From the NCBI GenBank assembly GCA_030041475.1, contig JASHNU010000051.1, positions 62,001 through 126,000 on the forward strand: a stretch of DNA of 64,000 nucleotides, read 5' to 3'. The notes beneath the pieces are model-generated. The model did not search any database. It saw only the letters and a program-made list of their open reading frames with translations, and had not been told where the DNA came from. Positions 1 through 16,357 of this stretch are shown one piece after another. The DNA comes from Candidatus Sulfotelmatobacter sp. (GTDB lineage Bacteria > Acidobacteriota > Terriglobia > Terriglobales > Acidobacteriaceae). Numbering within the stretch: the stretch's first letter is position 1; each line of letters starts with the position of its first letter. Both the position numbers and the translations under genes were made by a program.

Positions 1-14
1 GCGGGAGGTGAATC

Positions 15-875
15 GTGTCCGGCATTCTAGCCTCTATGATTGACGGTCTGCTGATTGGCTCGGTCTACGGGCTGGCGGCGATGGGCCTGAGCCTGATCTG
101 GGGCGTCATGGACGTGATCAACCTGACCCACGGATCCATGATCGCGCTCGGCATGTTCGGCATGTATCTGCTGTTTAGCGCGACCGCGAGCAACGCATAT
201 TTCTTGTTGGCGCCTTTGATCGTTGTCGGTCTGGTTCTTGGCATTATCGTGTATTGGCTCGCGGTCAACTGGGTTGTGGACCGCCCGATCTTGATGAGCC
301 TGCTCTCGACGTTCGCCGTGAACATGGTGGTCATTGGTCTCGGCACCGCTATTTGGAGCACCAGCCCTTACAACGTGAACTTCAGCGTGCCCGGCATCAC
401 CGTAGGCGAATACACGTTCACGGGAAACCATATCGCGGCGGCGAGTTCGGCGGTGGTAATTGCGCTCCTGCTGGAGTTGTTTTTGCGTCGAACGCGAGCA
501 GGCAAAGCCATCCGCGCAGTCGCGGACAATCGCGCCGCCGCCGAGCTGATGGGGATCTCCTCGACCCGCGTCCTGATGGTCGCCTTCGCCATCGGCATTG
601 CGCTGGCGATGGCCTCGGGCGCGCTGGTCTCGACGCTGTTCCCCTTCACCATTCTTTCCGGTGCCGGCTACCAGCTCAAGAGTTTTGTGGTGACGGTTCT
701 AGCCGGTCTGGGCAAGCCTTTCGGGGCATTAATCGCGGGCGTGCTTCTCGGTCTGCTGGAAGGAGCCGTATCGCCGTTCATCGCCGTGAGTTGGATTCCT
801 CTGATTGAATTTGGCCTGTTCGTGGTGGTGCTGATCGCGTTCCCGCGGGGCATTTTCGGAAAGGCGACGGCATGA
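15..875 (+). CDS. livH: Branched-chain amino acid ABC transporter permease LivH
   Basis: Inner-membrane permease of a HAAT-type importer for leucine/isoleucine/valine or related amides. The 286 residues are almost wholly hydrophobic, with about eight membrane segments. The family signature near the N terminus (GLAAMGLSLIWGVMDVINLTHG) and the LKSFVVTVLAGLGKPFGA stretch near residue 220 are typical of LivH. The GTG start is chosen because GGGAGGTG lies just upstream and the N terminus then matches the family. The stop overlaps the livM start by 4 bases, so the genes are translationally coupled. The substrate cannot be fixed from sequence; urea and other amides are alternatives for this family. 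Confidence 0.92.
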   Translation: MSGILASMIDGLLIGSVYGLAAMGLSLIWGVMDVINLTHGSMIALGMFGMYLLFSATASNAYFLLAPLIVVGLVLGIIVYWLAVNWVVDRPILMSLLSTFAVNMVVIGLGTAIWSTSPYNVNFSVPGITVGEYTFTGNHIAAASSAVVIALLLELFLRRTRAGKAIRAVADNRAAAELMGISSTRVLMVAFAIGIALAMASGALVSTLFPFTILSGAGYQLKSFVVTVLAGLGKPFGALIAGVLLGLLEGAVSPFIAVSWIPLIEFGLFVVVLIAFPRGIFGKATA

Positions 876-1837
876 TCCTGCGCCGGCCGCTGCTTTGGCT
901 GATTCTCGCGCTGGCCGCGCTGTTCGTGTGGCTTCCCCTGCGTAACCACGATGTGGCTCTGCGAGAAGACCTGATTCTGGTGGCGGTGGCTATCATCCTG
1001 ACCAGCAATCTCAACCTCATGATCGGTTACACCGGCTATGTGAACTTCGGCCACATCGTGTTCTACGGCCTGGGCGGATACGTGGGACTGTACCTGGCGA
1101 CGGTGCTGAACTGGAACCTGATCGTGGCGGCGCTGATTGCGGGCGTGACCGTGAGTGTTCTGGCATTGTTGTTTGGACTCGGCATTCTGCGCCTTCGCGG
1201 CGCCTATTTTGCTCTGGCCACGATCGGCGTGCTGGTGGCGGTGCAGGCCTTCGTGGCGAATTTCGAGCCTTGGGGCCGATCGACCGGCATGTACGTTTCC
1301 TTTGCATCGTACGCGCCGCTGGGCGGCGCGCGGCGTGCGCTCTGGATCACGTATTACCTGATCATTGGCGTTATGGCGCTGTCGCTCGTCTTGAGCCTGG
1401 GCATCAGAAGGTCGAAGTTCGGCTTGGGCCTGTTTGCGATTCGCGAAGACGAAGACGCCGCCATCGTCCTGGGCGTGAACGCCACAGTGTACAAGGCAAT
1501 CATTTACAGCGTGTCGGCATTTCTGCCGGCGGTCGCTGGCGCACTCATGTTTTTCAAGAACGGCATGATCGATCCTTCGATCGCGTTCGAGTACATGCTG
1601 TCGCTCGAGGGCATCGTGATGCTGATGCTCGGAGGCCAGGGCACGGTGGCCGGATCGGCGCTGGGTGGGGCCTTGTACGAACGGCTGCGCTCTTATCTGC
1701 TCACGTCACCGCGGCTTTCGGAATTTCACCTGGTGATCGCCGGCGCTCTGCTGCTGCTGGTGGTGAGGCTTGCGCCGGGCGGGCTGATCGGCTGGCTCTA
1801 TCGTCTGGTTCCGCGGTCGCGGGAGGTGGTGGAATGA
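872..1837 (+). CDS. livM: Branched-chain amino acid ABC transporter permease LivM
   Basis: Second inner-membrane permease (321 residues), pairing with LivH to form the translocation path. The motif around NLMIGYTGYVNFGHIVFYGLGGY (residues ~50-70) and AIREDEDAAIVLGVN (~190) are hallmarks of LivM. It overlaps livH at its start (ATGA) and livG at its end (ATGA), so four genes are read as one operon. Length and topology are normal. A periplasmic binding protein gene is not visible here and is expected just upstream of the window. Confidence 0.92.
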   Translation: MILRRPLLWLILALAALFVWLPLRNHDVALREDLILVAVAIILTSNLNLMIGYTGYVNFGHIVFYGLGGYVGLYLATVLNWNLIVAALIAGVTVSVLALLFGLGILRLRGAYFALATIGVLVAVQAFVANFEPWGRSTGMYVSFASYAPLGGARRALWITYYLIIGVMALSLVLSLGIRRSKFGLGLFAIREDEDAAIVLGVNATVYKAIIYSVSAFLPAVAGALMFFKNGMIDPSIAFEYMLSLEGIVMLMLGGQGTVAGSALGGALYERLRSYLLTSPRLSEFHLVIAGALLLLVVRLAPGGLIGWLYRLVPRSREVVE

Positions 1838-2586
1838 CGGCGCTGCTCGAAGTGCAAGGCGTCAGCAAACGCTTCGGCGGATTGCAGGCCGTCGGCGATG
1901 TGAGCTTCACGTTGCAGGAGGGGGAAATTCTCGGCCTGATCGGGCCGAACGGGGCAGGCAAGACCACACTCTTTAATCTGGTGAACGGCGTCTACAAGAC
2001 CGACACCGGTTCGATCATTTTTTCAGGCAAGAACATCACGGGCCGTTCGCCCGATCAGGTGGTTCATCTCGGATTGGCGCGAACCCACCAGATCGTGCGT
2101 CCTCTCAACGGCATGAGCGTGCTGGAGAACGTCATTGTGGGCGCATGCTATGGGCGTGAGTATCAGTCTTTGCGGGCAGCGCGGGCGACCGCGCTTGAGG
2201 TACTGGAACAGGTTGGCATGGCCAGCCGCGCCAATTCTCCCGCGCATTCTCTTACGTTGGCGTTCAAGAAGAGGCTGGAAGTCGCGCGGGCGCTGGCGGC
2301 ACGCCCGAAACTACTTCTGCTTGACGAAGTGCTGGCCGGTTTGAACCCCACCGAGATCGCGCAGATGATCGATCTGATTCGGAAGATTCGAGACAGCGGC
2401 GTCTCGGTGTTCATGATCGAGCATGTGATGCAGGCCATTATGAATTTGTCCGACCGTATCCTCGTCCTCAATCTGGGCCACAAGATTGCCGAGGCGCCAC
2501 CCGCCGAAGTGGTGAAGAATCCCGACGTGGTCGAGGCCTACCTGGGGTTTCCCGATATCGTGGACAAACTGCGAGGCGCGTCATGA
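1834..2586 (+). CDS. livG: Branched-chain amino acid ABC transporter ATPase LivG
   Basis: Cytoplasmic ATPase subunit (250 residues). Walker A is GPNGAGKTT near residue 38 and the Walker B region is LLLLDEVLAGLNP. As in other LivG-type ATPases the signature sequence is weakly canonical: SLTLAFKKRLEVARAL replaces the usual LSGGQ. The ATG at 1834 overlaps the livM stop, and an upstream in-frame extension is rejected because it lies inside livM. It powers import together with LivF. Confidence 0.93.
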   Translation: MTALLEVQGVSKRFGGLQAVGDVSFTLQEGEILGLIGPNGAGKTTLFNLVNGVYKTDTGSIIFSGKNITGRSPDQVVHLGLARTHQIVRPLNGMSVLENVIVGACYGREYQSLRAARATALEVLEQVGMASRANSPAHSLTLAFKKRLEVARALAARPKLLLLDEVLAGLNPTEIAQMIDLIRKIRDSGVSVFMIEHVMQAIMNLSDRILVLNLGHKIAEAPPAEVVKNPDVVEAYLGFPDIVDKLRGAS

Positions 2587-3299
2587 CCGACGTGGCTCTG
2601 GAACTCCAGAACCTCGAATCCGGCTACGGCGAAGTCCAGGTGCTGTGGGGCATATCACTGAAGGTGCGGGCTGGGAAGCTGACCACGATCATTGGCGCAA
2701 ACGGCGCGGGCAAGACGACAACGCTGCGCACGATCATGGGCTCAACGCGGCCATGGGGCGGGCGCATCCTGCTGGACGGTGAGGACGTCACCAAGCTCTC
2801 GCCTCACGCCAAAGCCGGACGCGGCATGGTGCTTGTGCCCGAGGGGCGACAGCTCTTTCCGGATATGTCCGTGGCCGAGAACCTGGAGATGGGTGCATAT
2901 TCGCGCCGCGCCCGGCCACGGCAGAAAGAAAACCTGGAGCGAGTCTATGCCGCGTTCCCGCGTCTGAAAGAGAGAAGCAAACAGAAAGCCTCCACTCTCT
3001 CGGGCGGCGAACAGCAGATGGTTGCCCTCGGCCGCGGGCTCATGCAGGAGCCTGTCGTCCTGATGATTGATGAGCTGTCGCTCGGCTTGGCGCCGGTGCT
3101 GGCGCAGCAGCTTTTCCTGACGCTGAAACAGCTCAAAGAGCAGGGAATTACGATCATTCTGGTCGAGCAGAATGTGCACCTCGCGCTGGCCGTGAGCGAT
3201 TACACATATGTGCTCGCCGAGGGCCGCGTGCCCATCGAAGGCGAATCGCAGCAGGTGGCGCTGATGGACGAGGTGCGGCGTGCGTACCTGGGGCTGTAA
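2583..3299 (+). CDS. livF: Branched-chain amino acid ABC transporter ATPase LivF
   Basis: Second ATPase of the importer (238 residues). It shows Walker A GANGAGKTT, the signature STLSGGEQQMVALGRGL, Walker B VVLMIDELSLGLAP and the H-loop region ILVEQNVHLAL. The ATG overlaps the livG stop codon by 4 bases. It is the last gene of the livHMGF operon; the next feature downstream is a tRNA gene on the same strand. Confidence 0.93.
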   Translation: MTDVALELQNLESGYGEVQVLWGISLKVRAGKLTTIIGANGAGKTTTLRTIMGSTRPWGGRILLDGEDVTKLSPHAKAGRGMVLVPEGRQLFPDMSVAENLEMGAYSRRARPRQKENLERVYAAFPRLKERSKQKASTLSGGEQQMVALGRGLMQEPVVLMIDELSLGLAPVLAQQLFLTLKQLKEQGITIILVEQNVHLALAVSDYTYVLAEGRVPIEGESQQVALMDEVRRAYLGL

Positions 3300-3383
3300 T
3301 TGGTTTGTATCCGGCTGAGAAGTGGGGCTTGTCGGCGGTGTCCAGACGCACACGCCTGTGCGATACTGAGGCCGGGCTCCGAT

Positions 3384-3460
3384 GGGCCCGTAGCTCAAAC
3401 GGATAGAGCATCGGATTTCTAATCCGAGGGTTGCAGGTTCGATTCCTGCCGGGCCTACCA
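3384..3460 (+). tRNA. tRNA-Arg (UCU)
   Basis: A complete cloverleaf is visible. The acceptor GGGCCCG pairs with CGGGCCT (one G-T pair). The D arm contains TAGCTCAAACGGATAGAGCA, the anticodon arm is TCGGA-TTTCTAA-TCCGA with anticodon TCT, and the T arm is GCAGG-TTCGATT-CCTGC. The 3' end ACCA is encoded, with CCA at 3458-3460. It reads AGA/AGG codons. A 136-bp tandem repeat starts inside its T arm. Confidence 0.96.
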
Positions 3461-3729
3461 GAAAAGACGAAATTCCCGAGATGAGGAGGCCCCTCCCCTT
3501 CTGCCTACGCTGCGCGTGGCATTCAGAGTCGGGATTTCGGCAGCGGGCTCCGATGCCCGCTAAACGCCTCAAGTTCGATTCCTGCCGGGCCTACCAGAAA
3601 AGACGAAATTCCCGAGATGAGGAGGTCCCTCCCCTTCTGCCTACGCTGCGCGTGGCATTCAGGGTCGGGATTTCGGCAGCGGGCTCCGACGCCCGCTAAA
3701 CGCCTCAAGTTCGATTCCTGCCGGGCCTA
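3437..3729 (+). repeat. 136-bp tandem repeat carrying the tRNA-Arg 3' end
   Basis: Two full units (3437-3572 and 3573-3708) plus a 21-bp partial third (3709-3729). The full units differ at only three positions. Each begins with the tRNA T-arm/acceptor sequence GTTCGATTCCTGCCGGGCCTA, so the 3' part of the tRNA is present three times. The remainder holds an imperfect hairpin (GAAATTCCCGA against TCGGGATTTC) and a GCGGGCTCCGATGCCCGC palindrome. The layout resembles the rtT repeats after tyrT in Escherichia coli, but the sequence is unrelated as far as can be seen. Confidence 0.93.
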
Positions 3730-3738
3730 ACTGCGATT

Positions 3739-4077
3739 TCAGGAAAAGGACGCCACCGCAGCATCTTCCGCGTCGTAGACCTCGAACAGGTTGAGCACGC
3801 CCACCAGTCGCAGCGTCTGGACGGCAAACTTCGAAGGCTGCAGTAGCTTGACGCTCCCGCCAAGTTTCTTGGCTGATACCAAAATCTTTACCAGCAGGCC
3901 GATTCCGCTGGAATCGATCATGGGAACTTCGGAGAGGTTCATGACGAAGCGGGTGTCGCCACTGGCGACGGCCTCCTCCAGGGTCTGCCGCAGGCTGTCG
4001 ACCGCTGGCCCCATGCGAAGCTGCCCCCGCAGCTGAATCACCTGCACTTGCGCACGCTTACGGACGTTGATGTCCAA
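3739..4077 (-). CDS. STAS-domain anti-sigma factor antagonist
   Basis: A 112-residue single-domain STAS protein of the SpoIIAA/RsbV type. The conserved phospho-acceptor loop is MIDSSGIGLLV (residues ~53-63), with the serine that partner kinases phosphorylate in this family. It would bind an anti-sigma kinase and release a sigma factor or other partner. No kinase or phosphatase partner lies beside it. The neighbour on the other strand is a sigma-54 activator 264 bases away, and a functional link to it is only a guess. Confidence 0.85.
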   Translation of the reverse strand: MDINVRKRAQVQVIQLRGQLRMGPAVDSLRQTLEEAVASGDTRFVMNLSEVPMIDSSGIGLLVKILVSAKKLGGSVKLLQPSKFAVQTLRLVGVLNLFEVYDAEDAAVASFS

Positions 4078-4264
4078 CTTTCCTCCAGCCCGGCTTGCAA
4101 ATTCTCGGATGAAGGTGCGGGCGACTTCTCCGAGCGGGTCTTAAGTTACGAAATGACGCAGGGATTTGCAAGTGGACGAGGAATCTGGTCGGCCCGGCGG
4201 CTTGATCCCGGAATGGGATTCCCGACAAAGGTCTGAGGATTCTGGTTTCCGGGTGCGCTAGGAT

Positions 4265-4277
4265 ATGAAAAATTCAT
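4265..4277. promoter_or_regulatory. 13-bp near-palindrome upstream of the sigma-54 activator
   Basis: ATGAAAAATTCAT, one mismatch from a perfect ATGAATnATTCAT inverted repeat. Related 13-mers occur at 5745-5757 and 5796-5808. Its position 65 bases before the activator start suggests autoregulation. Inferred from repetition only. Confidence 0.4.
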
Positions 4278-4341
4278 CCCCGGGAGTCGAACTTTTTGGC
4301 ATAATGCGGAGCGCTGATCGAGCACAGTCGGAGGAGGCGAC

Positions 4342-5748
4342 ATGCGCGCCGCACTCAAGTCGGAACCGGGCCGGGCCAGCGTAGTCATCGTCACCACGGA
4401 TGAGCGGGTGGGGCCCGAAGCCGACACGTATCTGGCCGGCGGCTATGAGCTCGGCATGGTGCAGACTTGGGATCAGCTGCTGGCTTTGGTGAACCTGCAG
4501 ATGCCGGACGCCATCCTGGTGGACCTCGATACCGTGGGAGAGACCAGCGATGACGGGATCGCCGCCCTCGGCGAGCTGCGCGCCATGGGGCCGGACCTGG
4601 TGCTGATCGGGCTGACGCGCTCGAACAGCCGCAATCTGCGGCTGAAAGCCGTCGGGGCCACGGCAGATGAATACTTTGTGGCTCCTATCAATTTCGAGGA
4701 GGTTCGTGCGGCGCTGGTCCGAACCTTGGACAAGCGGGCGCTCGAGATTGAGTGGCGCAATCGCCAGAGTGAGCAGGCCGAGCAACACCAGTTTGGTGAC
4801 ATGATTGGCGCCAGCGAGCCTATGCAACGGGTTTACGAGGCTGTCCGGCGCGTGGCCGACAGCAACAGTACGGTGCTGATCCGGGGTGAGAGCGGCACCG
4901 GCAAGGAATTGGTGGCGCGGGCGATCGTTGCTCTGGGGCCGCGAGCGGAAAAGCCATTCATCAGCATCAATTGTGCCGCGCTGCCGGAGAATCTGATCGA
5001 GGCGGAGTTGTTCGGGCACGAAAAGGGAGCCTTCACGGACGCGCGGACGGCGCGGCCTGGTCACATCGAACTAGCCCATACGGGTACGTTGTTTTTGGAC
5101 GAAATTGGGACACTTGGCCTGGCCCTTCAGACCAAGCTGTTGAGAGTGCTGGAGTATCGGTCCGTCACTCGCATCGGGGGCCAGACGGCGAAGAAAATCG
5201 ACTTCCGCCTGATCACAGCCACGAACGAGGACCTGGAGGAGATGGTAAAGATTGGCCGTTTCCGCGAGGACCTGTATTACCGCATCAATGTCGTGCCGAT
5301 CGCCCTGCCTCCTTTGCGCGAGCGGACGGGGGACATCCCCTTGCTGGTGGATCATTTCCTGCGCATCTACTGCGCGGCCAACAATACTCCTCTGAAGCGA
5401 CTGGACCCGGAAGTGATGCACATTCTTGAGGAAGATGCCTGGCCGGGAAACGTCCGCGAGCTGGAAAACCTGGTGCAGCGGCTTGTGTTGATGGTGGACG
5501 GGCCGACGATCAAGATCCATCACCTGCCCCAGCGGCTGATCTACAACAGCGCGGCGAGCCAGGAATCAATGCTGATCCCGGAGGGGGGAGTCGCCTTCGA
5601 CGAGGAGATTGCCAAGATTGAAATGGCCTATTTGACGGCGGCGCTGCGGCGAACAGAAGGCAGCAAGATCGCTGCGGCGCGCCTGCTGCGGGTGGATAAG
5701 CAGAGAATGCACTATTTATGCCGCAAATACGGGATCGGGAAAGCATGA
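4342..5748 (+). CDS. Sigma-54-dependent response-regulator-type activator, Fis family
   Basis: NtrC-like protein of 468 residues: an N-terminal receiver-like domain (~10-130), an AAA+ sigma-54 interaction domain (~150-385) and a Fis-type helix-turn-helix at the C terminus. Walker A is GESGTGKE and Walker B is GTLFLDEIG. The GAFTGA loop that contacts sigma-54 reads GAFTDA. In the receiver the paired acidic residues after strand 1 are missing (VIVTTDERV) and the usual KP is AP (FVAPINF), although a DLD occurs at the phosphorylation strand, so control may not be by phosphorylation. No histidine kinase is adjacent. Start ATG follows GGAGGAGG. The next gene has a sigma-54 promoter and is the obvious target. 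Confidence 0.88.
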   Translation: MRAALKSEPGRASVVIVTTDERVGPEADTYLAGGYELGMVQTWDQLLALVNLQMPDAILVDLDTVGETSDDGIAALGELRAMGPDLVLIGLTRSNSRNLRLKAVGATADEYFVAPINFEEVRAALVRTLDKRALEIEWRNRQSEQAEQHQFGDMIGASEPMQRVYEAVRRVADSNSTVLIRGESGTGKELVARAIVALGPRAEKPFISINCAALPENLIEAELFGHEKGAFTDARTARPGHIELAHTGTLFLDEIGTLGLALQTKLLRVLEYRSVTRIGGQTAKKIDFRLITATNEDLEEMVKIGRFREDLYYRINVVPIALPPLRERTGDIPLLVDHFLRIYCAANNTPLKRLDPEVMHILEEDAWPGNVRELENLVQRLVLMVDGPTIKIHHLPQRLIYNSAASQESMLIPEGGVAFDEEIAKIEMAYLTAALRRTEGSKIAAARLLRVDKQRMHYLCRKYGIGKA

Positions 5749-5757
5749 AAAATTCGA
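5745..5757. promoter_or_regulatory. Degenerate copy of the 13-bp palindrome at the activator stop codon
   Basis: ATGAAAAATTCGA, matching the copy at 4265 for its first 11 bases. It overlaps the stop codon of the activator and lies about 190 bases before the predicted transcription start of the repeat-peptide gene, within the normal range for enhancer-like sites. Confidence 0.35.
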
Positions 5758-5795
5758 CGGAGGCGGTACTGACATTAAAATTCAATCCTGCAAAG

Positions 5796-5808
5796 ATGAA
5801 TTATTCAT
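5796..5808. promoter_or_regulatory. Perfect 13-bp palindrome, candidate upstream activator site
   Basis: ATGAAT-T-ATTCAT is a perfect inverted repeat centred about 140 bases before the predicted start of the sigma-54 transcript, a typical distance for a bacterial enhancer-binding protein. The Fis-type domain of the adjacent activator is the likely reader. Confidence 0.5.
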
Positions 5809-5918
5809 ATCTCGATTCTTTTTCTCGTCGCCCCCTTTTGCCCTCTAGTCTCTCCCGGCAGCGGCTAAGTGATTGACGACAATGTAGTTCTGTTTTGGCT
5901 GTGGCTGACATAACAGTT

Positions 5919-5934
5919 TGGCACACCGACTGCT
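5919..5934 (+). promoter_or_regulatory. Sigma-54 (-24/-12) promoter of the repeat-peptide gene
   Basis: TGGCAC-ACCGA-CTGCT. The GG and GC elements have the required 10-base spacing. The only departure from consensus is C for T in TTGC. Transcription would begin near 5945, giving a leader of about 50 bases that contains AGGAGAG ahead of the ATG at 5994. The preceding gene encodes a sigma-54 activator. Confidence 0.75.
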
Positions 5935-5993
5935 CTTTACCCAACCGAGCAGCAACGCAGAGATCGAAAAATAAAAATACAGGAGAGATTCCA

Positions 5994-6248
5994 ATGGCGA
6001 TTCAGAAAAAGAGTTTGATCGGGAACCTGACGGCGGCGAAGAAGGCCATCATCGCCACGAACGCCGCCGCGACGAGCCCCGTAGTGAGCGCGCAGGCACT
6101 GGAAACCGGCAAGAGGCTCGACTCGGCCAAGAGGCTCGACTCGGCCAAGAGACTCGACTCGGCCAAGAGACTCGACTCAGCTAAGAGGCTCGACTCAGCT
6201 AAGAGGCTCGACTCGGCCAAGAGACTTGACTCGGCCAAGAGGTACTAG
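5994..6248 (+). CDS. Repeat peptide precursor with seven KRLDSA repeats
   Basis: Unrecognised 84-residue protein. Residues 1-39 form an Ala/Lys-rich, possibly helical leader (MAIQKKSLIGNLTAAKKAII...). Residues 40-81 are seven exact copies of KRLDSA and the protein ends KRY. The DNA repeats are 18 bp and vary only at synonymous positions (AGG/AGA, CTC/CTT, TCG/TCA, GCC/GCT), so the amino-acid pattern is under selection. There is no cysteine and no conventional signal peptide. ATG is preceded by AGGAGAG. It has its own sigma-54 promoter and terminator. A convergent operon encodes a PqqD-S2P-adaptor fusion and two more adaptors, so a ribosomally made, processed and exported peptide is the favoured reading. 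A charged structural peptide is the alternative. Confidence 0.85.
   Translation: MAIQKKSLIGNLTAAKKAIIATNAAATSPVVSAQALETGKRLDSAKRLDSAKRLDSAKRLDSAKRLDSAKRLDSAKRLDSAKRY
6111..6245 (+). repeat. 18-bp in-gene tandem repeat (7.5 copies)
   Basis: Units start at 6111, 6129, 6147, 6165, 6183, 6201 and 6219, with a half unit at 6237. All differences between units are silent. It encodes (KRLDSA)7-KRY. Confidence 0.97.
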
Positions 6249-6289
6249 ACAACAAATTCCGCTCTGGCCGAAACAGCGTCAACGTGGTC

Positions 6290-6328
6290 GGGGAGAGATC
6301 GCAACGGCGGTTTCTCCCCTTATCTTTT
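6290..6328 (+). terminator. Intrinsic terminator after the repeat-peptide gene
   Basis: Stem GGGGAGA (6290-6296) / TCTCCCC (6313-6319) with a 16-base loop, followed by TTATCTTTT. It lies 42 bases after the peptide stop codon and separates it from the convergent operon. Confidence 0.75.
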
Positions 6329-6342
6329 GAACGAAAGCAATT

Positions 6343-8487
6343 TCACCAGATCTTGCGTTGGACGAACTCCCGTCCCATTTCGCACACGAACCAGGCAAGG
6401 CTGCGCCGCCGAACCTGAATCTTGGCATCTCCCGACATGCCGGCGCGCAGGGCTCCGCTTCGATTTACGACAACTACGGTGACGACATATTGCGGTGGAG
6501 GTGTCAACCCCTTGTACTGCTCAATGTGGATGAGTCCGGCCGGCAGGTCCAGCGGAGTCGGGGAAATCGCGCTCACCTGCCCCAGAACCGGCTGAAACTG
6601 TGACTCGAGCTTCAAAGACACCGGGGCGCCAGGAGCGACACGGTGAAGTTCAAAATCGGGAACAAAGATCCGGGCTTTGAGGGTCTGGGTAGCGTCGATT
6701 TCCGCCAGTTCGGTTCCTTCCGCAACAAAAGAGCCAGCGAGGTTGCGGATTCGCGGCGTGACCACGACCCCTGAGATCGGACTGGTTATTTGAAGTACGG
6801 CTAGCTGGCGAGAAGCGGACCGGTAACGTTCCGATTGCGATTCCTGCTCGCTACGGGCGTAACCCAGGTCTGCGTAATTGAACTGTGCCCGGCGAGTATT
6901 GGCTTGCGCCAAGCTCAGGTCGGCCAAAGACCGGCCCGCATCTCCCTCCAGATTCAGGTTCCGCATCTGAAAGATCGTTGCGCCGGCAGCGATCGGCGAA
7001 CCTTCGTCGGCCAGGACCTGCATAACCTGTCCGGGAACGGTGGCGCGGATTACAGCGCGCTGATACGGCTCCAGCAGGAATCGCCCTCGAACGGTCTCGC
7101 GCCAGACGGGAGCGAATATAACCAAAGCAAGCGCGATACCAGCTACAACCTTGCGAGGAGCGGTCCACCACGTGCGAAAGCTTTCTTGTTTGTCCAGATA
7201 AAGGTCTTTCATAAACCTCACCGATGAGCGCAATCGCGAGCGAAGAATCATCAGCCCAAGTGCGAGGGCAGGCAGAAATGCCCACTGCGGGCTGAAGCGA
7301 AACGAGATGTTGTAAGCGAGACGCACTACAGCAAACAGGAGCAGGTAGCTATATGCGCCGGAAAGCAAGGCATAGCTCGTGAACAACCATCGCCGCCGCC
7401 GCCGCAGGAAAGGAACCTCGACCGGCATTCGGAAGACATAGTGCTTCACCCAGCTGGAGACGTACTCGGTGGAGCTCTCCTTAAGGCCGGGAACGCCGAC
7501 CACTTCGCTAAAGAGATAGTAGCCGTCAAGTTTCATCAAGGGGTTCAGGTTCATGAGCACCACAGCCACGCCCGTGATCAGAATGACTTTGTACGCAAAG
7601 TCGTGAACCGGGCTACCGACGGGAGTTCCCCACCAGATAATGCTCGCTACAGAACAGAACATCAGCTCGACCCAGATTCCAGCAACGATGGCAGTAATCC
7701 GTTGCCACTTGCTCCCATATACATATATCTCGGTGAGATCTACAAAGAAGCAGGGCTCCAGATAGAGGAGCATAAAGCCCATGCGGTGAACCCCGCCTCC
7801 ATAGTGCTTGCAGGTCAGCCCATGGGCAGACTCGTGGAAAAAGCCCAGAGCAAAGAAGAGCAACCAGAACTCGGCCAGATCGGCCGCTCCCTTGTGAGTG
7901 AAAGTGTAATACTCAACCGAGTCGCGCGAGATTTCGCTCCAGCCGCCGATGAAGATTAGCGTCATGATGAAAAACATGCCGAGCGTCAGGAGAGTGAACC
8001 AACCTGAATAAACAAATGAGATCTTCTCGTGGAGCGCGCTGAGATATCTGTCGGGGTCCCAGGTAGAAAATGTCATGTGAGCGAGGTTCAATTTTGATCG
8101 CCGTCGCTTGCGCTCCTCGGTGAGCTTCTGGTCACCAGTGCCTTTGAGCTCAAGGGTGGCTTTGTAGAACAGTCCTGCCTCGTCGAGTTGCTCGGCAAAA
8201 CTGCGGGCATACTCCTCGCTGCACAGGACCCCAGTGCGCTCGGTAAAGACCTCGGCGATTCCGCTGTAGGAATGTCGCCCATCAAACAGTTCAACCAGCT
8301 TCCACTGCTCGGGCGTAAAGAAATATACGGAAGTATCGGCGCCGGAGACCATCGCGACCATCGTCGGAACCCCATCCTTGAGTTGCTCGCGACAGATGAG
8401 TTTGGGATGAAGCCGGGGGCGATCCTGGCCGGCCCTGCGCGCGGGCAGCTCAGGAAGCACGACGTTAAAGACCTCAGCGAGGTTCAT
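6343..8487 (-). CDS. PqqD-like / M50 (S2P) metalloprotease / HlyD-like adaptor fusion
   Basis: 714 residues with three parts. Residues ~25-110 look like a PqqD-type winged helix (YFFTPEQWKLVELFDGRHS ... FAEQLDEAGLFY), the fold used to recognise precursor peptides in many RiPP systems. Residues ~160-460 hold several membrane helices with the site-2-protease zinc motif HESAH (218-222) and the second motif NPLMKLDG (315-322). Residues ~470-700 form a biotinyl-lipoyl/HlyD-like adaptor with a long helical pair. The protein would sit in the inner membrane with its C-terminal part outside. The family is annotated as putative peptide zinc metalloprotease (YydH-like). It overlaps the preceding adaptor gene by 4 bases and faces the repeat-peptide gene, its likely substrate by inference. 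Confidence 0.88.
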   Translation of the reverse strand: MNLAEVFNVVLPELPARRAGQDRPRLHPKLICREQLKDGVPTMVAMVSGADTSVYFFTPEQWKLVELFDGRHSYSGIAEVFTERTGVLCSEEYARSFAEQLDEAGLFYKATLELKGTGDQKLTEERKRRRSKLNLAHMTFSTWDPDRYLSALHEKISFVYSGWFTLLTLGMFFIMTLIFIGGWSEISRDSVEYYTFTHKGAADLAEFWLLFFALGFFHESAHGLTCKHYGGGVHRMGFMLLYLEPCFFVDLTEIYVYGSKWQRITAIVAGIWVELMFCSVASIIWWGTPVGSPVHDFAYKVILITGVAVVLMNLNPLMKLDGYYLFSEVVGVPGLKESSTEYVSSWVKHYVFRMPVEVPFLRRRRRWLFTSYALLSGAYSYLLLFAVVRLAYNISFRFSPQWAFLPALALGLMILRSRLRSSVRFMKDLYLDKQESFRTWWTAPRKVVAGIALALVIFAPVWRETVRGRFLLEPYQRAVIRATVPGQVMQVLADEGSPIAAGATIFQMRNLNLEGDAGRSLADLSLAQANTRRAQFNYADLGYARSEQESQSERYRSASRQLAVLQITSPISGVVVTPRIRNLAGSFVAEGTELAEIDATQTLKARIFVPDFELHRVAPGAPVSLKLESQFQPVLGQVSAISPTPLDLPAGLIHIEQYKGLTPPPQYVVTVVVVNRSGALRAGMSGDAKIQVRRRSLAWFVCEMGREFVQRKIW

Positions 8488-9386
8488 TGCGGATTCTGCA
8501 GGCGAATGTTGACGGTCATTCCCGGGCGCAGGCCGACGGGAGCGCCTTGCAGTTCGGCGGTGACGTCGATCGTGTCGCTGGAAGGATCGACGACCGGGCT
8601 GACGAGGATGACTCTGGCCGGGTGAGTTTCGTCGGCTGCCTCCTGCGTTGTCACGATCAGTTCAGTGCCTCTCTTCATGTGTCCGAAATAGCTTTCGGGC
8701 AGGGAGAACTTCACTCGCAACGGTGCTATGGCTGAGACCCAGAAGAGGCGGTCATGCTTGGCGACTTCCTGCCCGACGCGCACGTAGCGGCGCGCCACGA
8801 CGCCATCAAAGGGAGCCGTGATACGGGTTTTTTCCAGCTCGAAATCGAGCGATCGCAGACTCTCCTGCGCGTACTTCAGATCCTCGCGCTGACGCTCGAC
8901 TTCGAAATCGGTGGCTTCCGACTGGTACCGCGCCTTCTCTTCCTGCTCCTTGGCAATAATGTTCGCCTTCCAGAGTTCCTCAGCCCGATCCCGTTCAGCG
9001 CGCGCGACTTTCGCGCCCGCCTCCCAGTTCTTCAGGTCAGCGGCAGTGCTTTTCGCTTTGGCCTCAGCGGCATCGCGATCGGCGGTGAGTTGGCGGTCGT
9101 CGAGTTTCGCGAGAAGCTGACCCTTCTGTACAGGTGCGCCAGCTTCGACAAGAATCTCGGCGACGATTCCATCGCGCAGAGCAGCGAGATCGACCTGGTC
9201 CTCAACGACGATGGGGCCGGAGGCAATGTAATCGTTGCGTGCGGTTTGCAGCGGGGTGGTCGCAGACGCGCCCGGCTGTGGAAGTGGCGCGGCTGCGGCC
9301 GCCGTCGGCGCAGAACCGGAACTGCAACCGGCCATGACCAGCGTTGCGAAGGAAATTATCACGGCGAGATAACGGGAGTAGCGCAT
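8484..9386 (-). CDS. Lipoprotein periplasmic adaptor (RND/HlyD-type membrane fusion protein)
   Basis: 300 residues starting at the ATG at 9386, which has GGAG six bases upstream; a GTG four codons earlier is also possible. A lipoprotein signal is present (lipobox VMAGC). The order is barrel-sandwich half, alpha hairpin (~90-180: DAAEAKAKSTAADLKNWEAG...), barrel half (ITAPFDGVVARRYVRVGQEV) and C-terminal adaptor domain, as in AcrA/HlyD proteins. No RND pump, ABC ATPase or outer-membrane channel gene is adjacent, which is unusual for such an adaptor. It sits between a GAF-adaptor gene and the protease-adaptor gene in one operon. Confidence 0.88.
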   Translation of the reverse strand: MRYSRYLAVIISFATLVMAGCSSGSAPTAAAAAPLPQPGASATTPLQTARNDYIASGPIVVEDQVDLAALRDGIVAEILVEAGAPVQKGQLLAKLDDRQLTADRDAAEAKAKSTAADLKNWEAGAKVARAERDRAEELWKANIIAKEQEEKARYQSEATDFEVERQREDLKYAQESLRSLDFELEKTRITAPFDGVVARRYVRVGQEVAKHDRLFWVSAIAPLRVKFSLPESYFGHMKRGTELIVTTQEAADETHPARVILVSPVVDPSSDTIDVTAELQGAPVGLRPGMTVNIRLQNPQ

Positions 9387-9476
9387 GATCGACTCCACAG
9401 TCGAACTTCAATATTTTGAGCTACACGAGAAACTTGCCAACCGAACCCAGCAACCAAGCGCCTCACCAACTGGACT

Positions 9477-11876
9477 TCACCAACCAAACCAGGACCACAA
9501 TTTGCCCCAAATCCACATGGCGGTTCCACGGAAAACCACGTAGCCGGCGGGATGCCACCCGACAGATACCTTGCCTTGACCTTGCATGCCGGGACGGATC
9601 GCGCCGTCCTCGTTGGCCAGACTGACACGAGCGGCGAAGACGCGGTGCTCCGACTCGACCTGACCCTGCGGACTGACGACCATCACATCTCCTCGAAATG
9701 TCCGGAGGGGGAAGCTCTCGAGCTTGATGGCGGCGTGCTCGCCGCGTTGGAGCAGTGCAACGTCGTCTTCGGGAACGGCGACGTCGATGGTCACTTGCGA
9801 TGTTTCCACGATCTCGGCAAAGGTGTCGCCCTGCGCCAGACGGCGTCCCACGGCATTTTCGACATGTGGTGTGATGACGATGCCGTCGATTGGAGAGCGG
9901 ATGGTGGTGCGATCGAGGCGCTCCAGCGCGCGGGCCAGTTCGGCTTTCGAGTAATCCGCCTTGATGCGTTCGGTTCCGGCGCGCGTTCCGTCATTCTGCG
10001 CGAGGGCGCGATTCATCGCTTCCGTTGCCTCGCTGTAGCGAGCTTGCGCAGCGGCTGCATCTGCGCGGTAGTTCCAGTCTTCCAGTTCAGCGAGTGCTGC
10101 ATTTTTCTTCACGCGGTCGCCCTCGTGGACATAAACTTTCTTGACCACGCCGTCCACGCCCGGCTGCACTTGCGCCAGGGCGGCGGGAGCGACGGTGGCC
10201 CCTCCCGAAACCCGCATGGGCAGCGGACAAAATATGAAGAATAGAACCAAGGCTGCCGCAATCGCGATCATCAGCCCGCGCCGGCGTTTTTCCATGGCCA
10301 GGAACCGCTTCTTTTTCTGCAGCAGGGGCTCCAGCACATTAATGAAAGGAACTTCGCGGTAGAGCGACGCGTTGCGCAGGGCGACAGTCGCCTGGCCGGC
10401 GAGCACCTTGATGATTTCCAGGTGAGCGACCGTCAGAAAATCCGGATCACTGCTCTCAAAGGAGAGAATTCCGAGCCGGCCCTGATCGTCAATGAGCGGA
10501 AGGGAGTAGAATCCGCGCATTCCCGTGTTCGCAAAATATTCGGCAAACTTAGCCTGGGTTTCGTGCCGGGGATCGCTGATCTCATCTCCGTGCTGGGTGA
10601 CGTGGGTTTCTTCGGATGAAATCGAAGCCCACTCCAGCAGATCTTTCAGCGCGGAAACCGCGGGGTCGGCCAGGCTGATCTGGGTCATGCCCGAGATGGC
10701 TTTGAGCTGCAACGAGCCACGCTGCTCCAACGCGATGGCCGCGCGTTCGAATGGAATGATGGCCTGTGTGTGATTGACCACGGACTGCAGAACGCGATCG
10801 ATATTCAGCGTGGACGTGATTTCGCTGCTCACCTGCACCAGAGTTTGCAGGATTTCCACTTTGCGTTCCGCCTGCAAAAGGCTGGCGTTGTGCAGCGCAT
10901 TGCTGGCGGTTTCGCAGATGTTAATCAGCAGGAACTGGTCGTCGTCGTCGAAAGGCGTGCCGTTCAGGCTGTTGATCACCTCGACCACGCCCACGAGGTT
11001 CTCGTGCTCCATCAGCGGAGCGGCCACCAGCGAGAAGATTGGCTGATCTTCGTGACCCGTGTTTCGTTTCTGCAGGCGCTCGTCATTGGGATCATCGATC
11101 AGGACGGCTTCGCCGTTGTCGGAAATATCTCCCGCGATGCCCTCGCCTGGCTTCTGAACCATGCCGACCATAACCGTGGGATCGAATCCCTCGCAGCTCA
11201 TTAGCTCGAGTGCATCGCCATTGATCATCCACAGGTTGACACCCTGTACATTCATGACGTCCTGGAATTTCTTGGCGATGGTGCCGAGCAGTTCATTCAT
11301 CTCCAACGTGGAGTTGAAGACTTTTTCCAGGTCGTACATCTGGGTGACGCGGCTGATGGAATGGAGGGTGGCATTGCGCTCGCTCACGTAGGAAAGTGCG
11401 GCAGCTATGGCCGCGGAGGCCAACTCGGCGATTTCGCTGAGCGGTTCCTGCATGGCTTCGGGGAACGGGTGATCGAAACTGATTAGTTCGATGGCGCCGA
11501 TGAGGGTTTCGTCTACCAGGAGTGGAAGATAGGCGAGGGAAGCGATCGTGCGCCGGACGTCGAGGTGGGCGAAGTCCTCGCGCCGCAGGGCCGCGCCCTC
11601 AAACACCGCAAATTCTTTATTCTGCGCGAGCGATCCCAGCGTGCCCGCTTCGAACTCCATTCCCTGGACCGCGTTGATTTCACCGGCAGTGGCTTTGGGA
11701 GCCCAAGACGGGGCCTCCTGGTCCTCAATGATGTAGACCGCGACTGCAGTATCGGGCAGAAGCTGAGCGATCAGGTCGGCAGTCAACTGCGCCCGCGGGC
11801 CCACTTCCTGCCGGGCCAGCAAAGCCGTGGCAAATTCAGCCACGGGAACGGCGAGCGGAGGTCTTCGAGTCGCCAT
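9477..11876 (-). CDS. Three-GAF sensor fused to a HlyD-like adaptor
   Basis: 799 residues from the ATG at 11876; a TTG at 11966 would add 30 residues, and neither start has a clear ribosome site. Residues ~20-510 comprise three GAF domains (the middle one includes DRVLQ/GEGIAGDISDNGEAVLIDD-type features), then a coiled linker, one membrane helix at ~535-558 (LMIAIAAALVLFFIFCPLP) and a HlyD-like adaptor ending in Trp-rich MWIWGKLWSWFGW. Input domains are thus cytoplasmic and the adaptor is periplasmic. GAF domains usually bind small ligands or cyclic nucleotides; the ligand here is unknown. First gene of the operon leading into the lipoprotein adaptor and the S2P fusion. Confidence 0.87.
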   Translation of the reverse strand: MATRRPPLAVPVAEFATALLARQEVGPRAQLTADLIAQLLPDTAVAVYIIEDQEAPSWAPKATAGEINAVQGMEFEAGTLGSLAQNKEFAVFEGAALRREDFAHLDVRRTIASLAYLPLLVDETLIGAIELISFDHPFPEAMQEPLSEIAELASAAIAAALSYVSERNATLHSISRVTQMYDLEKVFNSTLEMNELLGTIAKKFQDVMNVQGVNLWMINGDALELMSCEGFDPTVMVGMVQKPGEGIAGDISDNGEAVLIDDPNDERLQKRNTGHEDQPIFSLVAAPLMEHENLVGVVEVINSLNGTPFDDDDQFLLINICETASNALHNASLLQAERKVEILQTLVQVSSEITSTLNIDRVLQSVVNHTQAIIPFERAAIALEQRGSLQLKAISGMTQISLADPAVSALKDLLEWASISSEETHVTQHGDEISDPRHETQAKFAEYFANTGMRGFYSLPLIDDQGRLGILSFESSDPDFLTVAHLEIIKVLAGQATVALRNASLYREVPFINVLEPLLQKKKRFLAMEKRRRGLMIAIAAALVLFFIFCPLPMRVSGGATVAPAALAQVQPGVDGVVKKVYVHEGDRVKKNAALAELEDWNYRADAAAAQARYSEATEAMNRALAQNDGTRAGTERIKADYSKAELARALERLDRTTIRSPIDGIVITPHVENAVGRRLAQGDTFAEIVETSQVTIDVAVPEDDVALLQRGEHAAIKLESFPLRTFRGDVMVVSPQGQVESEHRVFAARVSLANEDGAIRPGMQGQGKVSVGWHPAGYVVFRGTAMWIWGKLWSWFGW

Positions 11877-12035
11877 CAGCGGCGGTCCAGATTGTTCAGG
11901 TTGGGCCCGTGCCAATTGCGGGGGATACGGCCAGAGACTGTGGGCCCCTCGTTTTATGAGCCGCAATCTTATGCCCCATTGCCGGAGCAGGTCAAATGCT
12001 TTTGTGAGGGCGGCGGCCCATACTCTCGCGACTCG

Positions 12036-12511
12036 ATGGCCAACCCAGACTCAGGCAAGGCGACGCAACCGCCGCCACGCGGGCGGCAGCGGCGGAGTAC
12101 ATTCAGCAGCGGCTGCAGGCGCACGAACAATTTCGCCGGCTGCGGCGGCGCAAAGCTTTTTATGAGATTCACGCCGCGGGCAATGGCAAGTTTGGTTGGC
12201 GTTTTCATGACGACAAGGGGAAGGTGCTGGCGACTTCGACGCAGACTTATGGGTCACCGATGGCGCAGGCCGATATTGAACGGATGAGAGATCTGGCGCC
12301 GTTTGCGCGTCAGACCAATCCTGAATACGAAACCAGCGCCGAAGCAGAGTCCGAAGAAGAGACGGAAGTAAGGTTCGCTCCAAGGCTACAAATCCAGTTG
12401 AAGCCGAAGAGCGAGAGGATTTTGCGGATCGCCAGGCCGGGCCGGAGAATTAAGGCGGCACATGCATCCCTCCGTCACTACCCGATTTCGCACGTGGCTG
12501 CCATAATGTGA
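12036..12511 (+). pseudogene. DUF1508-like (YegP family) gene, apparently frameshifted
   Basis: From about 12090 the frame ending at 12511 reads AFYEIHAAGNGKFGWRFHDD-KGKVLATSTQTYGSPMAQADIE. This resembles the DUF1508 pattern (F/Y-E-I-x-aromatic-x-x-G-x-F-x-W-R ... I-A-T-S-x-x-Y-x-S). That frame has no ATG before a stop at about 12005 and its first GTG is at 12224, inside the domain. The natural start ATG at 12036 (MANPDSGKATQPP) is in another frame, so a shift around 12070-12090 is suspected. The C terminus is charged and rich in Glu. It may be a real decayed gene, a sequencing error, or a gene with an unusual start. Confidence 0.4.
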
Positions 12512-14226
12512 AAATGGCATGTACTTTCCTGAATGAAAATTGGCTTCCGAAGTCTGTCCTTTGTCTGCGGGACTACACCCGGCACAAATTTCTGCTCGAT
12601 TTGATCGCGGGCGTCACAGTCGGGCTGGTGGCTTTGCCGCTGGCAATGGCGTTTGCCATTGCGTCCGGGCTGACTCCACAGGCGGGGATTTACTGCGCAA
12701 TCGTAACCGGATTTCTGATTTCCGCGCTCGGCGGGTCGAAGACTCAGATTGGCGGCCCGACGGGAGCGTTTGTCGTCGTTGTGGCAGGGATCGTCGCGGT
12801 GCACGGCGTGGACGGGCTGTTCATGTGCACGGTGATGGCTGGCGTCTTGTTGGTCGTCATGGGCCTCACGGGCCTGGGCACGGCGGTGAAGTTCATTCCG
12901 CGGCCAGTGGTGATCGGATTTACCAATGGCATCGCCGTGCTGATCGCCAGCACGCAGGTGAAAGATTTCTTCGGGCTGCATCTCGACAAGGTCCCCGGGG
13001 TTTTCTGGTTGCGCATGGAGGCGCTGGCGGCGAGCTTTCACACCTTGTCATTCGAAGCTACGGCGCTCGCTGTATTTACGCTGGTCACGCTGATTGTTTG
13101 CCGCAGCATCTCGGCCCGTATTCCGGGGCCAATTGTGGCGCTGTTGCTGGCAACGTGCGCTGTTTATTTTTTCCGGTTGCCGGTGGAAACGATCGGCAGC
13201 CGCTTCGGCGGAATCCCCGGCGGGCTGCCCCATTTGCAGATCCCCAAATTTCGCTCGGATCTGATTCACGGATTGCTGGGGCCGGCGTTCACCGTGGCCA
13301 TGCTCGGCGCGATCGAGTCTCTCATGTCCGCGGTAGTTTCCGACCGCATGAGCAACGATCGGCATAATCCGAACGTCGAATTGATGGCCCAGGGTGTGGC
13401 CAATGTTTTTTCGCCGATGTTCGGCGGTTTGCCCGCCACCGGCGCGATCGCGCGCACGGCGACCAACATTCGTTCGGGTGCGCAGTCGCCCGTGGCGGGA
13501 ATGGTTCATGCCCTGACGTTGCTGTGCATTCTGCTGTTTGCCGCGCCTCTGGTCAGCTATGTACCCATGGCTGCACTAGCGGGAATCCTGATGGTCGTGG
13601 CCTATAACATGGGCGAGTGGCGCGAGATTCCGCAATTGCTGAAGTTGACCAAGACCGACATCAGCATATGGCTGGTGACGTTTGCGCTGACCGTATTCGC
13701 CGACCTCACCGTCGCGGTGGAGGCGGGAATGATTCTAGCGGCGCTTTTGTTCATCAGCCGCGTGGCCGCGACCACAACAGTTTCACGGGTGACCGACGAC
13801 TACGTGGAGGATGGGCGTGTCCACATCCTGCAGGACAAAGACATACCCTACTATGCGACGATCTTCCGCATCCACGGGCCATTTCTGTTTGGGGCGACGG
13901 ATAAAATCTCGGCGGTGACTGAAGATTTGCACCGGCTGCCGCCAGTGGTGGTTCTGCGATTACGAAATATGACTGCGCTCGACGCAACCGGGTTGTTTGC
14001 CATCGAAGAAGTTGCCCGGCTACTGCACGCGAGCAACCGGACGCTGATTCTTTGCGGGGCGCGGGAGCAACCGTCGAAACTGATCCACCAGGCGGAGTTT
14101 GAAGAAGTCATCGGAGAGGAAAATATCTGCGACAACGTGCAGGAGGCGCTCCGCAGAGCCGAGGAAGTCTACGAAGGCCTGGAGACCAGCGGCATTGTCG
14201 GAAGGAATGCAAATATCCGAGGCTAG
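12508..14226 (+). CDS. SulP-family anion transporter with C-terminal STAS domain
   Basis: 572 residues (GTG at 12508; ATG two codons on is equally likely). Residues ~25-430 are membrane helices with SulP features (DLIAGVTVGLVALPLAMAFAIASGLTPQAGIY near the N terminus; GLPATGAIARTATNIRSG near residue 312). Residues ~450-560 form a STAS domain (VVVLRLRNMTALDATGLFAIEE). Likely a proton- or sodium-coupled importer of sulfate, bicarbonate or a dicarboxylate; the substrate cannot be read from sequence. It stands alone, followed by the purA promoter. Confidence 0.9.
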   Translation: MKMACTFLNENWLPKSVLCLRDYTRHKFLLDLIAGVTVGLVALPLAMAFAIASGLTPQAGIYCAIVTGFLISALGGSKTQIGGPTGAFVVVVAGIVAVHGVDGLFMCTVMAGVLLVVMGLTGLGTAVKFIPRPVVIGFTNGIAVLIASTQVKDFFGLHLDKVPGVFWLRMEALAASFHTLSFEATALAVFTLVTLIVCRSISARIPGPIVALLLATCAVYFFRLPVETIGSRFGGIPGGLPHLQIPKFRSDLIHGLLGPAFTVAMLGAIESLMSAVVSDRMSNDRHNPNVELMAQGVANVFSPMFGGLPATGAIARTATNIRSGAQSPVAGMVHALTLLCILLFAAPLVSYVPMAALAGILMVVAYNMGEWREIPQLLKLTKTDISIWLVTFALTVFADLTVAVEAGMILAALLFISRVAATTTVSRVTDDYVEDGRVHILQDKDIPYYATIFRIHGPFLFGATDKISAVTEDLHRLPPVVVLRLRNMTALDATGLFAIEEVARLLHASNRTLILCGAREQPSKLIHQAEFEEVIGEENICDNVQEALRRAEEVYEGLETSGIVGRNANIRG

Positions 14227-14247
14227 AGGCGCTGCTGCCTGTGTGCG

Positions 14248-14277
14248 TTGCTTCCGTTCGACGGAGCACGGTAGAAT
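14248..14277 (+). promoter_or_regulatory. Candidate sigma-70-type promoter of purA
   Basis: TTGCTT (14248-14253), 18-base spacer, TAGAAT (14272-14277). Transcription would start near 14285, giving a GC-rich leader of about 120 bases before the TTG start of purA. No known riboswitch is recognised in that leader. Confidence 0.4.
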
Positions 14278-14405
14278 ATCGCGTACACGTCTTCTCCGCT
14301 TATATCCCTAGAATTCTTGCGCAGGCATCCCCGCGGGTGAGAAGTGTGCGACCCGGGGACGGGCCCAGCCATGGCCTGCTCGAATGTGCGTGATCGGAGA
14401 CCGAC

Positions 14406-15731: not shown

Positions 15732-15820
15732 AATGACCTCCCCGGCCTGAGGCTAATCAGGATGCCGGTTTCCCAAACCGGCTTGCTTCACCAGGCACGG
15801 CCGCGGCGAAGGAGCGAACG

Positions 15821-16108
15821 ATGGTGGTGTTGGCGGTTACCTGGATGGCGAAAGTTGGGCACGAAGCCGAAGTTGCCGCACTGTTTCAGAAGCTGACCGA
15901 ACAATCCCGCAAGGAACCCGGATGTTCCATGTATCAGGTACATCGGCATAAGACCGAACCGCGCCGCTTCTTTATCTACGAACAGTACAAGGACGATGCC
16001 GCACTCGAAGCGCATCGCACGGCTCCCCACTTTTTGCAGTTCGCGAGGAAAGATCTTCCCAAGCACGCGGACCGCGTAGAAGGACACCTGTTCGAGCCGC
16101 TGGGGTAG
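15821..16108 (+). CDS. Antibiotic biosynthesis monooxygenase (ABM/YgiN-like) domain protein
   Basis: 95-residue single ABM domain: KVGHEAEVAALFQKLTEQSRKEPGCSMYQVHRHK ... RRFFIYEQYKDDAALEAHRTAPHF. The EPGC...Y and F-x-x-x-E-x-Y-x-D blocks are typical of small dimeric ferredoxin-like proteins such as quinol monooxygenase YgiN or LsrG-like enzymes. Substrate unknown. ATG follows AAGGAGCG. Convergent with the tautomerase gene. Confidence 0.82.
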   Translation: MVVLAVTWMAKVGHEAEVAALFQKLTEQSRKEPGCSMYQVHRHKTEPRRFFIYEQYKDDAALEAHRTAPHFLQFARKDLPKHADRVEGHLFEPLG

Positions 16109-16144
16109 GGCCGTGTGGAGCGGACACTTCTGCCCGCTTGATCG

Positions 16145-16336
16145 TCACTTCTGCTTGTCGGCCATCAGTTCGCCGCCGCTGGCGTAGCTTTCCTTCGAGA
16201 CTTCGTGAAAAGCAACGATGATGGCTTCGCGGCGCGCTCCAGCTTCTTCGACGAGAGCGTCGGTGATGCGCTTGGCGATCTTGCGCTTCTGATCGGCCGT
16301 GCGGCCCTGCAGCATTGTGATTTGAACCATGGGCAT
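16145..16336 (-). CDS. 4-oxalocrotonate tautomerase family protein
   Basis: 63 residues with the family length and layout. After removal of Met the N-terminal residue is the catalytic Pro (MPMVQITMLQGRTADQKRK). KRITDALVEEAGARREAIIVAFHEV follows with the usual helix. Small oligomeric tautomerases of this type act on enol/keto acids; the physiological substrate is not predictable. It lies 21 bases after the acetyltransferase gene on the same strand. Confidence 0.87.
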   Translation of the reverse strand: MPMVQITMLQGRTADQKRKIAKRITDALVEEAGARREAIIVAFHEVSKESYASGGELMADKQK

Positions 16337-16357
16337 AGATGTTCCTCACTCAGATAT

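Follow-up and report, generated by a model that had tools for sequence, protein, structure and literature searches.

A candidate sigma-54-switched cassette for production and export of a leader-tagged, polycationic repeat peptide in Acidobacteriaceae

Within a 64,000-nucleotide stretch of DNA from Candidatus Sulfotelmatobacter sp. (hereafter the window), the open reading frame at 5994-6248 on the forward strand encodes an 84-residue peptide dominated by tandem copies of the hexapeptide KRLDSA. Comparison with related genomes places this peptide in an undescribed leader-tagged family, and we interpret its locus, with a probability of about 70%, as a dedicated, sigma-54-switched cassette for the production and export of a polycationic tandem-repeat peptide that would be leader-guided, protease-processed and RiPP-like. 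The literature within reach of our search, which did not extend to subscription papers and preprints, contains no description of the peptide, the leader or the cassette, and no exact-word match to KRLDSA, KKSLIS or LEERIAPG.

The reading frame runs from an ATG at 5994 to a stop codon at 6248. It comprises a conserved leader, MAIQKKSLIGNLTAAKKAIIA (residues 1-21, 5994-6056), in which conservation is high and falls after A21 (47 of the 49 members compared); a variable linker (residues 22-39, 6057-6110) with low information from residue 22 onward; seven KRLDSA units of 18 bp each, in register (6111-6236); and a truncated last unit KRY followed by the stop codon (AAG AGG TAC TAG, 6237-6248). Tandem Repeats Finder reports the array with a period of 18, a score of 210 and 7.4 copies. 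Reading the codons confirmed what the earlier note had seen, namely seven 18-bp units with synonymous differences only, KRLDSA identical in each and a KRY end: just four codon positions vary (AGG/AGA, CTC/CTT, TCG/TCA and GCC/GCT), all of them silently and at third positions. Taken alone, this array gives four silent events out of four against an expected silent fraction of 0.24-0.30 (p = 0.003-0.008), some of the unit differences being non-independent because units 4 and 5 share TCA and GCT. Silent variation by itself cannot tell the coding strand, since an antisense reading frame (6002-6238, reverse strand) shares its wobble positions with the sense frame; what identifies the sense strand is the conserved leader, along with the sigma-54 element and the Shine-Dalgarno sequence in front of it. 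The antisense frame encodes perfect AESSLL repeats, one per unit. The window genome carries one copy of the leader peptide gene. Pfam and NCBIfam give no match to the peptide, and a scan of viral contigs revealed no relative.

The leader, with the pattern MxIQKKSLIxxxxxxKKAIxA, is the constant part of the family. Its profile matches 60 of 398 genomes in a sample of the same GTDB family. In a sample of the phylum it matches 9 of 396, all nine of which fall inside that family. A search of 200 genomes of the family at the protein level brought up peptides that begin alike and continue with other repeats. For the comparison, genomes were scanned by alignment to the M50 protein encoded next to the peptide, and the best 80 of 235 relatives were kept as loci; the leader profile, applied to these loci and to the regions fetched before, identified 56 peptides, or 49 after removal of duplicate loci, all distinct in sequence. 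They come from isolates and metagenome-assembled genomes of Edaphobacter, Granulicella, Candidatus Korobacter, Candidatus Sulfotelmatobacter and other Acidobacteriota, and include two from one assembly, where two separate cassettes (L079 and L096) carry the different units KVVGHSP and RVQS. The invariance of the KKSL residues is partly by construction, because the 49 peptides were chosen by the leader profile and trimmed by the pattern KK[SN]L, and relatives located by position do deviate from the leader pattern (KKSIV in L091). At two loci, L088 and L116, no leader peptide was seen although the sequence there is sufficient. Mean identity over the leader is 57% in the sense frame and 33-49% in the other five frames.

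Upstream of the window gene lies a sigma-54 type -24/-12 element, TTGGCACACCGACTGCT (5918-5934, forward strand), which scores 11 of 13 and stands 76 bp before the ATG. A GG-N10-GC element of this kind precedes all 49 family peptides, 60-108 bp before the start, and begins with TTGG in 48 of them and with CTGG in one; every element scores at least 9, a lowest observed value that shuffled sequences attain in about 7% of cases. Together with an adjacent activator gene, this promoter provides the features of a sigma-54 regulon. The Shine-Dalgarno sequence AGGAGAG occupies 5981-5987, and a GGAG-like sequence precedes the start in most of the relatives listed. Between the peptide gene and its convergent neighbor lies a terminator-like stem-loop of 13 pairs (6290-6319), a weak signal of which shuffled sequences yield about one per region. 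An Rfam search of window positions 1-20,000 matched no family except a tRNA. That tRNA gene, at 3384-3457, is followed by a 136-bp direct repeat (2.2 copies, 98% matches, 3384-3729) that begins inside the tRNA 3' end and looks like a footprint of repeated integration or duplication.

The neighborhood of the peptide is also conserved. To count neighbors, each reading frame of at least 90 residues within 9 kb was assigned to its best model at the 49 loci. The window gene is preceded by a sigma-54 activator with receiver-like, AAA and Fis-type HTH domains (4342-5748, forward strand), with a homologue at 46 of the 49 loci. Convergent with the peptide gene is a 714-residue fusion of an RRE domain, an M50 metalloprotease and an HlyD adaptor (6343-8487, reverse strand; 46 loci), followed on the same strand by an HlyD/RND-type periplasmic adaptor whose start we read as lipoprotein-like (8484-9398; 45 loci) and by three GAF domains fused to an HlyD adaptor (9477-11966; 45 loci). 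A STAS anti-sigma-antagonist-like protein (3739-4077, reverse strand) recurs within 9 kb at 32 loci. The misses among the activator, M50, HlyD and GAF-HlyD genes are due to a short contig on that side, except at L038 (8996-10878, genome G024), the sole case without a contig-end cause, where peptide and activator are present and no RRE-M50-HlyD gene lies within 9 kb on that side. The linkage was also examined at 37 of the places matching the leader, in genomes many of which overlap with the 49: the M50 gene is present, and convergent, at 33, the activator at 36, and at least one of the two at all 37. Three of the four loci lacking the M50 gene are at a contig edge, and the fourth, L156, belongs to the same genome as L038.

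Outside the cassette, the commonest neighbor family within 9 kb reaches just 6 of the 49 loci, and no tailoring enzyme, pump or channel recurs there; equally, no ATPase and no inner-membrane ABC, RND or MFS pump is recurrent in the cassette over the same loci and distance. The branched-chain-amino-acid-type ABC genes that we read at 15-3299 of the window are absent from the recurrent families. Judged by single-sequence hits to the Bdellovibrionota proteins described below, no OEP/TolC-type gene was found around the Acidobacteriota cassettes, and the window genome encodes several OEP proteins elsewhere. A suspected TolC gene beside an Edaphobacter cassette was rejected, its start looking, in our reading, like that of an HtrA-type protease.

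The fusion protein retains HExxH and NPLxKLDG invariantly in the 38 sequences aligned, and its C-terminal part is MexA/AcrA-like with an MFP fold. Its N-terminal domain (residues 22-112, 8152-8424, reverse strand), predicted to consist of three strands and three helices (pLDDT 93), is PqqD-like by fold and profiles. The closest solved structures found by Foldseek are lasso-peptide RREs with the leader bound, at an E-value of 9e-3 that is weak when taken alone; VIA Z-scores are 10.2 (rmsd 2.7 over 83 residues) and 9.6 against the lasso RREs, 7.7 against PqqD and 7.6 against TruD. The fold alone is not proof, because two non-RRE winged-helix families reach 8.0-8.7. The NCBIfam PqqD model matches the domain in 4 of 18 members (best 6.1e-6) and the Pfam model matches 3 of 38 (best 0.0025). 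A profile of the domain retrieved no related sequence among PDB chains (best E 0.56, unrelated), so the assignment draws on the fold and the NCBIfam and Pfam profiles; an RRE is indicated alike by the predicted fold, by these profiles and by the leader peptide encoded alongside. For the M50 part, the nearest NCBIfam model is the daptide protease NF041824 (E 4e-40, 138.1 bits against a cut-off of 300), and the epipeptide YydH/LiaK protease model NF058609 gives E 2.9e-10 and 40 of 225 bits.

RRE domains are a hallmark of RiPP pathways, and their presence in the M50 protein raises the question of whether the peptide is a true RiPP, each core unit being modified by an enzyme encoded elsewhere while the RRE-M50 protein just matures and exports the product. 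The daptide protease as nearest model of the M50 part, below its cut-off, points the same way. Nevertheless, we consider this reading unlikely: no tailoring enzyme recurs beside the peptide within 9 kb at the 49 loci, the units share no modifiable residue but a basic one, and the cores lack Cys and Trp. The RRE domain is present by fold and profile; the cassette is not filed as a RiPP because a tailoring enzyme in the cluster, which is a defining trait of such pathways, was sought and not found. A dedicated export cassette with RiPP-like leader recognition is the interpretation that we prefer.

Behind the shared leader most genomes carry a repeat of their own, such as RVQS, APNKL, KGLSGA or NQPLLK. 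Consensus units could be drawn for 34 of the 49 peptides and measure 3 to 12 residues, those of 12 being pairs of similar hexamers; besides KRLDSA they include LSGAKG, LSGGKG, KLAPN, SKVAA, RVQS, KPAI, VRPT, GNTR, NQPLLK, KVVGHSP and RVTPHA. Lys or Arg occurs in all 34 units, whereas 33 are without Asp and Glu, 11 without Lys and 8 without Ser and Thr; KRLDSA is the sole unit with an acidic residue, and its two basic residues keep it at +1 per unit. Each of the 49 cores carries a net positive charge, between +0.11 and +0.30 per residue, and contains neither Cys nor Trp; Asp and Glu account for 1.3% of core residues (49 cores) and Lys and Arg for 18.7%. In the same 34 peptides, 334 of 339 cells are basic in those columns where basic residues form the majority, and in the remaining columns 1251 of 1364 cells hold the majority residue. 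The suggestion in the earlier note that Asp, Ser and Lys might be sites of cleavage, acylation or isopeptide formation does not generalize to units of this composition, and neither a ligase nor any other tailoring enzyme is recurrent among the neighbors. We have set aside Lys/Asp/Ser crosslinking along with release of units after Ala or Lys, as units without these residues are common.

Near-uniform units within a genome that differ between species would also suit a multi-copy signal, in which the units are cut apart and released as short, species-specific, pheromone-like peptides, and the GAF-domain adaptor could sense something. This is less probable still than modification by a distant enzyme. 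The units can be as short as 3-4 residues (KMH, RVQS, KPAI), a common cleavage site is absent, and several arrays contain K-P or R-P junctions, which would resist trypsin-like cleavage; moreover, some members, L057 and L077, are hardly repetitive.

Scans of 15 members against domain models gave scattered matches. Collagen models match two (Pfam 6.9e-23, NCBIfam 3.4e-21), and the arrays of L034, L039 and L058 (3 of 34) have glycine at every third residue in the manner of collagen triplets; a collagen-like helix as the common feature of the family is ruled out, this periodicity being absent from the other 31 consensus units. Single matches were obtained to a TigB model (1.9e-4), to a histone-H1-like model (5.3e-7) and to pentapeptide models. 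The histone-like match in one member, together with the Lys/Ala/Pro-rich composition, would fit a cytoplasmic nucleic-acid-binding or histone-like basic repeat protein whose linkage to the cassette is incidental. We regard this as improbable in view of the convergent linkage to an RRE-bearing protease-exporter cassette and the shared leader of fixed length.

The repeats themselves were compared codon by codon across the family. In the 37 of 49 peptides with a period that could be set, events between units number 278 silent and 127 replacement, where about 123 silent would be expected (113 to 129 across transition biases of 1 to 6). Events were counted as distinct codons per column with kinship ignored, so that p-values below 1e-50 are nominal, and the replacement count is inflated because automatic array borders include ragged edge units. 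Slippage does grow and shrink tandem arrays, but a neutral minisatellite in a non-functional reading frame is contradicted by this silent excess, by the promoter at 49 of 49 loci and by the in-frame conservation of the leader (57% against 33-49%), and can be dismissed. The earlier note had taken the silent variation as selection on the peptide pattern and had named non-synonymous drift between the units of relatives as evidence to the contrary. Such evidence is partly present: several relatives have units that differ by replacements, for example RVTPHA/RVTPLA/RVTPVA and LSKQAH/LSKQIS, relatives of this kind including L068, L052, L066 and L064, and from one species to another the whole unit is different; a family-wide rule of silent changes only therefore fails, while the silent bias holds. 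Selection on the repeated peptide is much more strongly supported over the family than by the single array, but what persists is a uniform cationic unit and not KRLDSA.

Individual comparisons illustrate the change of unit. Among the pairs compared, the nearest relative of the window whose peptide could be read, L047, is 66% identical in the M50 protein and 92% in the leader, and bears the unrelated unit RPIANKAMP. In L051 and L053, whose M50 proteins are 91% identical, 90% of the core is kept, with unit changes, and in a genome of the same genus as the window (L151, genome G642) the array, there cut by the contig start, opens with GKRVDL. These sequences indicate that the core turns over fast between species.

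More distant relatives of the machinery are associated with other peptides and proteins. In the distant Acidobacteriota L101, L109 and L102 the convergent layout recurs with arrays of LQRAS, LQRGT and GVLQRGA behind a K-rich start. A second leader type (IKLTNEQQEAIRRATGQ; around LTxxQ and TGQ or TGR) occurs in L104, L107, L106 and L111; in L104 (5578-6540) and L107 (9813-10770, reverse strand) it is followed by a 12-residue repeat around ARKAPL, and in L106 (8785-9290) and L111 (10903-11590, reverse strand) by a peptide in the same convergent position without clear tandem repeats, so that repeats are not required by the machinery. With a simple pattern, no sigma-54 element was seen before the peptides of L101, L102, L104, L107, L109 and L111; an activator gene is near in each.

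In all four Bdellovibrionota loci (L108, L110, L114 and L123), homologous M50, GAF-HlyD and HlyD genes adjoin two OEP/TolC-type genes each, eight genes of which two were recognized by Pfam and the rest by similarity to these two. Three of the loci also encode, next to these genes, a large protein that begins KKLEERIAPG or RKLEERIAPG (L108 5009-8047, L110 17066-21187, L114 3759-6812); in L123 the gene at this place is cut by the contig end. In a Bacteroidetes locus, L117, two small proteins with LEERVAPS and LEARIAPS (8776-8967 and 9665-9889) are encoded just upstream of the M50-HlyD gene. The N-terminal KLEERIAPG may be a sorting tag. The position of homologous machinery beside TolC-type genes in the four Bdellovibrionota loci suggests a secretion system, and from the gene neighborhoods we infer a secretion machine with changing substrates.

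On this basis the following sequence of events is proposed for the dedicated export cassette. From its position and conservation, the activator (4342-5748) would switch on the peptide gene via the -24/-12 promoter. The predicted RRE domain that opens the M50-HlyD fusion would bind the 21-residue leader, which the M50 domain would remove at the inner membrane or within it. From there the core may be handed outward by the HlyD domains of the three adaptors, probably to a TolC-type channel whose gene lies elsewhere, so that the peptide is probably exported. At or outside the cell surface the repeats would form a soft, extended polycation, which, judging from its composition, would most likely bind anionic polymers of the envelope or matrix or harm competitors; this last step is the least secure of the scheme. 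Within a genome, purifying selection and array turnover would keep the unit near-uniform, while between species the unit would be replaced and the charge, leader and machinery would stay. A broader proposal, which we advance tentatively and at slightly less than even odds, is an undescribed, leader-guided secretion route in which the RRE-M50-HlyD protein recognizes its substrates through a tag at their N-terminus and, with no classical pump involved, delivers them via adaptors and TolC-type channels, the substrates being hypervariable polycationic repeat peptides in Acidobacteriota and large LEERIAPG-tagged proteins in Bdellovibrionota.

The combination of a conserved leader and machinery with species-specific, near-invariant units offers a clean natural experiment, showing which cores a leader-guided exporter will accept and which properties are under selection in a low-complexity peptide, in this case uniformity and charge. 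Should the RRE-M50-HlyD fusion itself act as the exporter, it would tie RiPP leader recognition directly to protein secretion and would also open a way into the cell surface biology of the abundant soil Acidobacteriota, about which little is known.

Comparison with established systems reveals partial likeness to several of them. The core motifs of graspetides, Thr/Ser/Lys plus Asp/Glu, do not describe a family in which 33 of 34 units lack Asp and Glu, and a scan of seven window proteins, namely the peptide plus six neighbors, revealed no ATP-grasp ligase, nor is one recurrent across the 49 loci. Multi-core repeat RiPPs such as TigB also have a tandem motif behind one leader, and one of 15 members matches TigB weakly, but here the unit is not constant between species, and the seven scanned window proteins include no radical SAM enzyme. 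The M50 leader proteases of daptides (NF041824) and epipeptides (YydH/LiaK, NF058609) are related intramembrane HExxH proteases; the cassette protein is far below both curated cut-offs and carries an HlyD adaptor domain, and the same seven proteins contain no daptide enzyme. Tripartite MFP-TolC export (MexAB-OprM, MacAB-TolC, type I secretion) employs HlyD/MexA-type adaptor domains like those of the cassette, which has no RND, MFS or ABC inner-membrane pump and whose adaptor is fused instead to the RRE and the protease. A further parallel is offered by the precursors of RRE-dependent RiPP systems (lasso B1, PqqD and TruD-type), which share the short conserved leader, the hypervariable core and a nearby RRE protein and protease; the present cassette differs from them in having no recurrent tailoring enzyme and in combining the RRE with an M50 protease and an HlyD adaptor in a single fusion protein.
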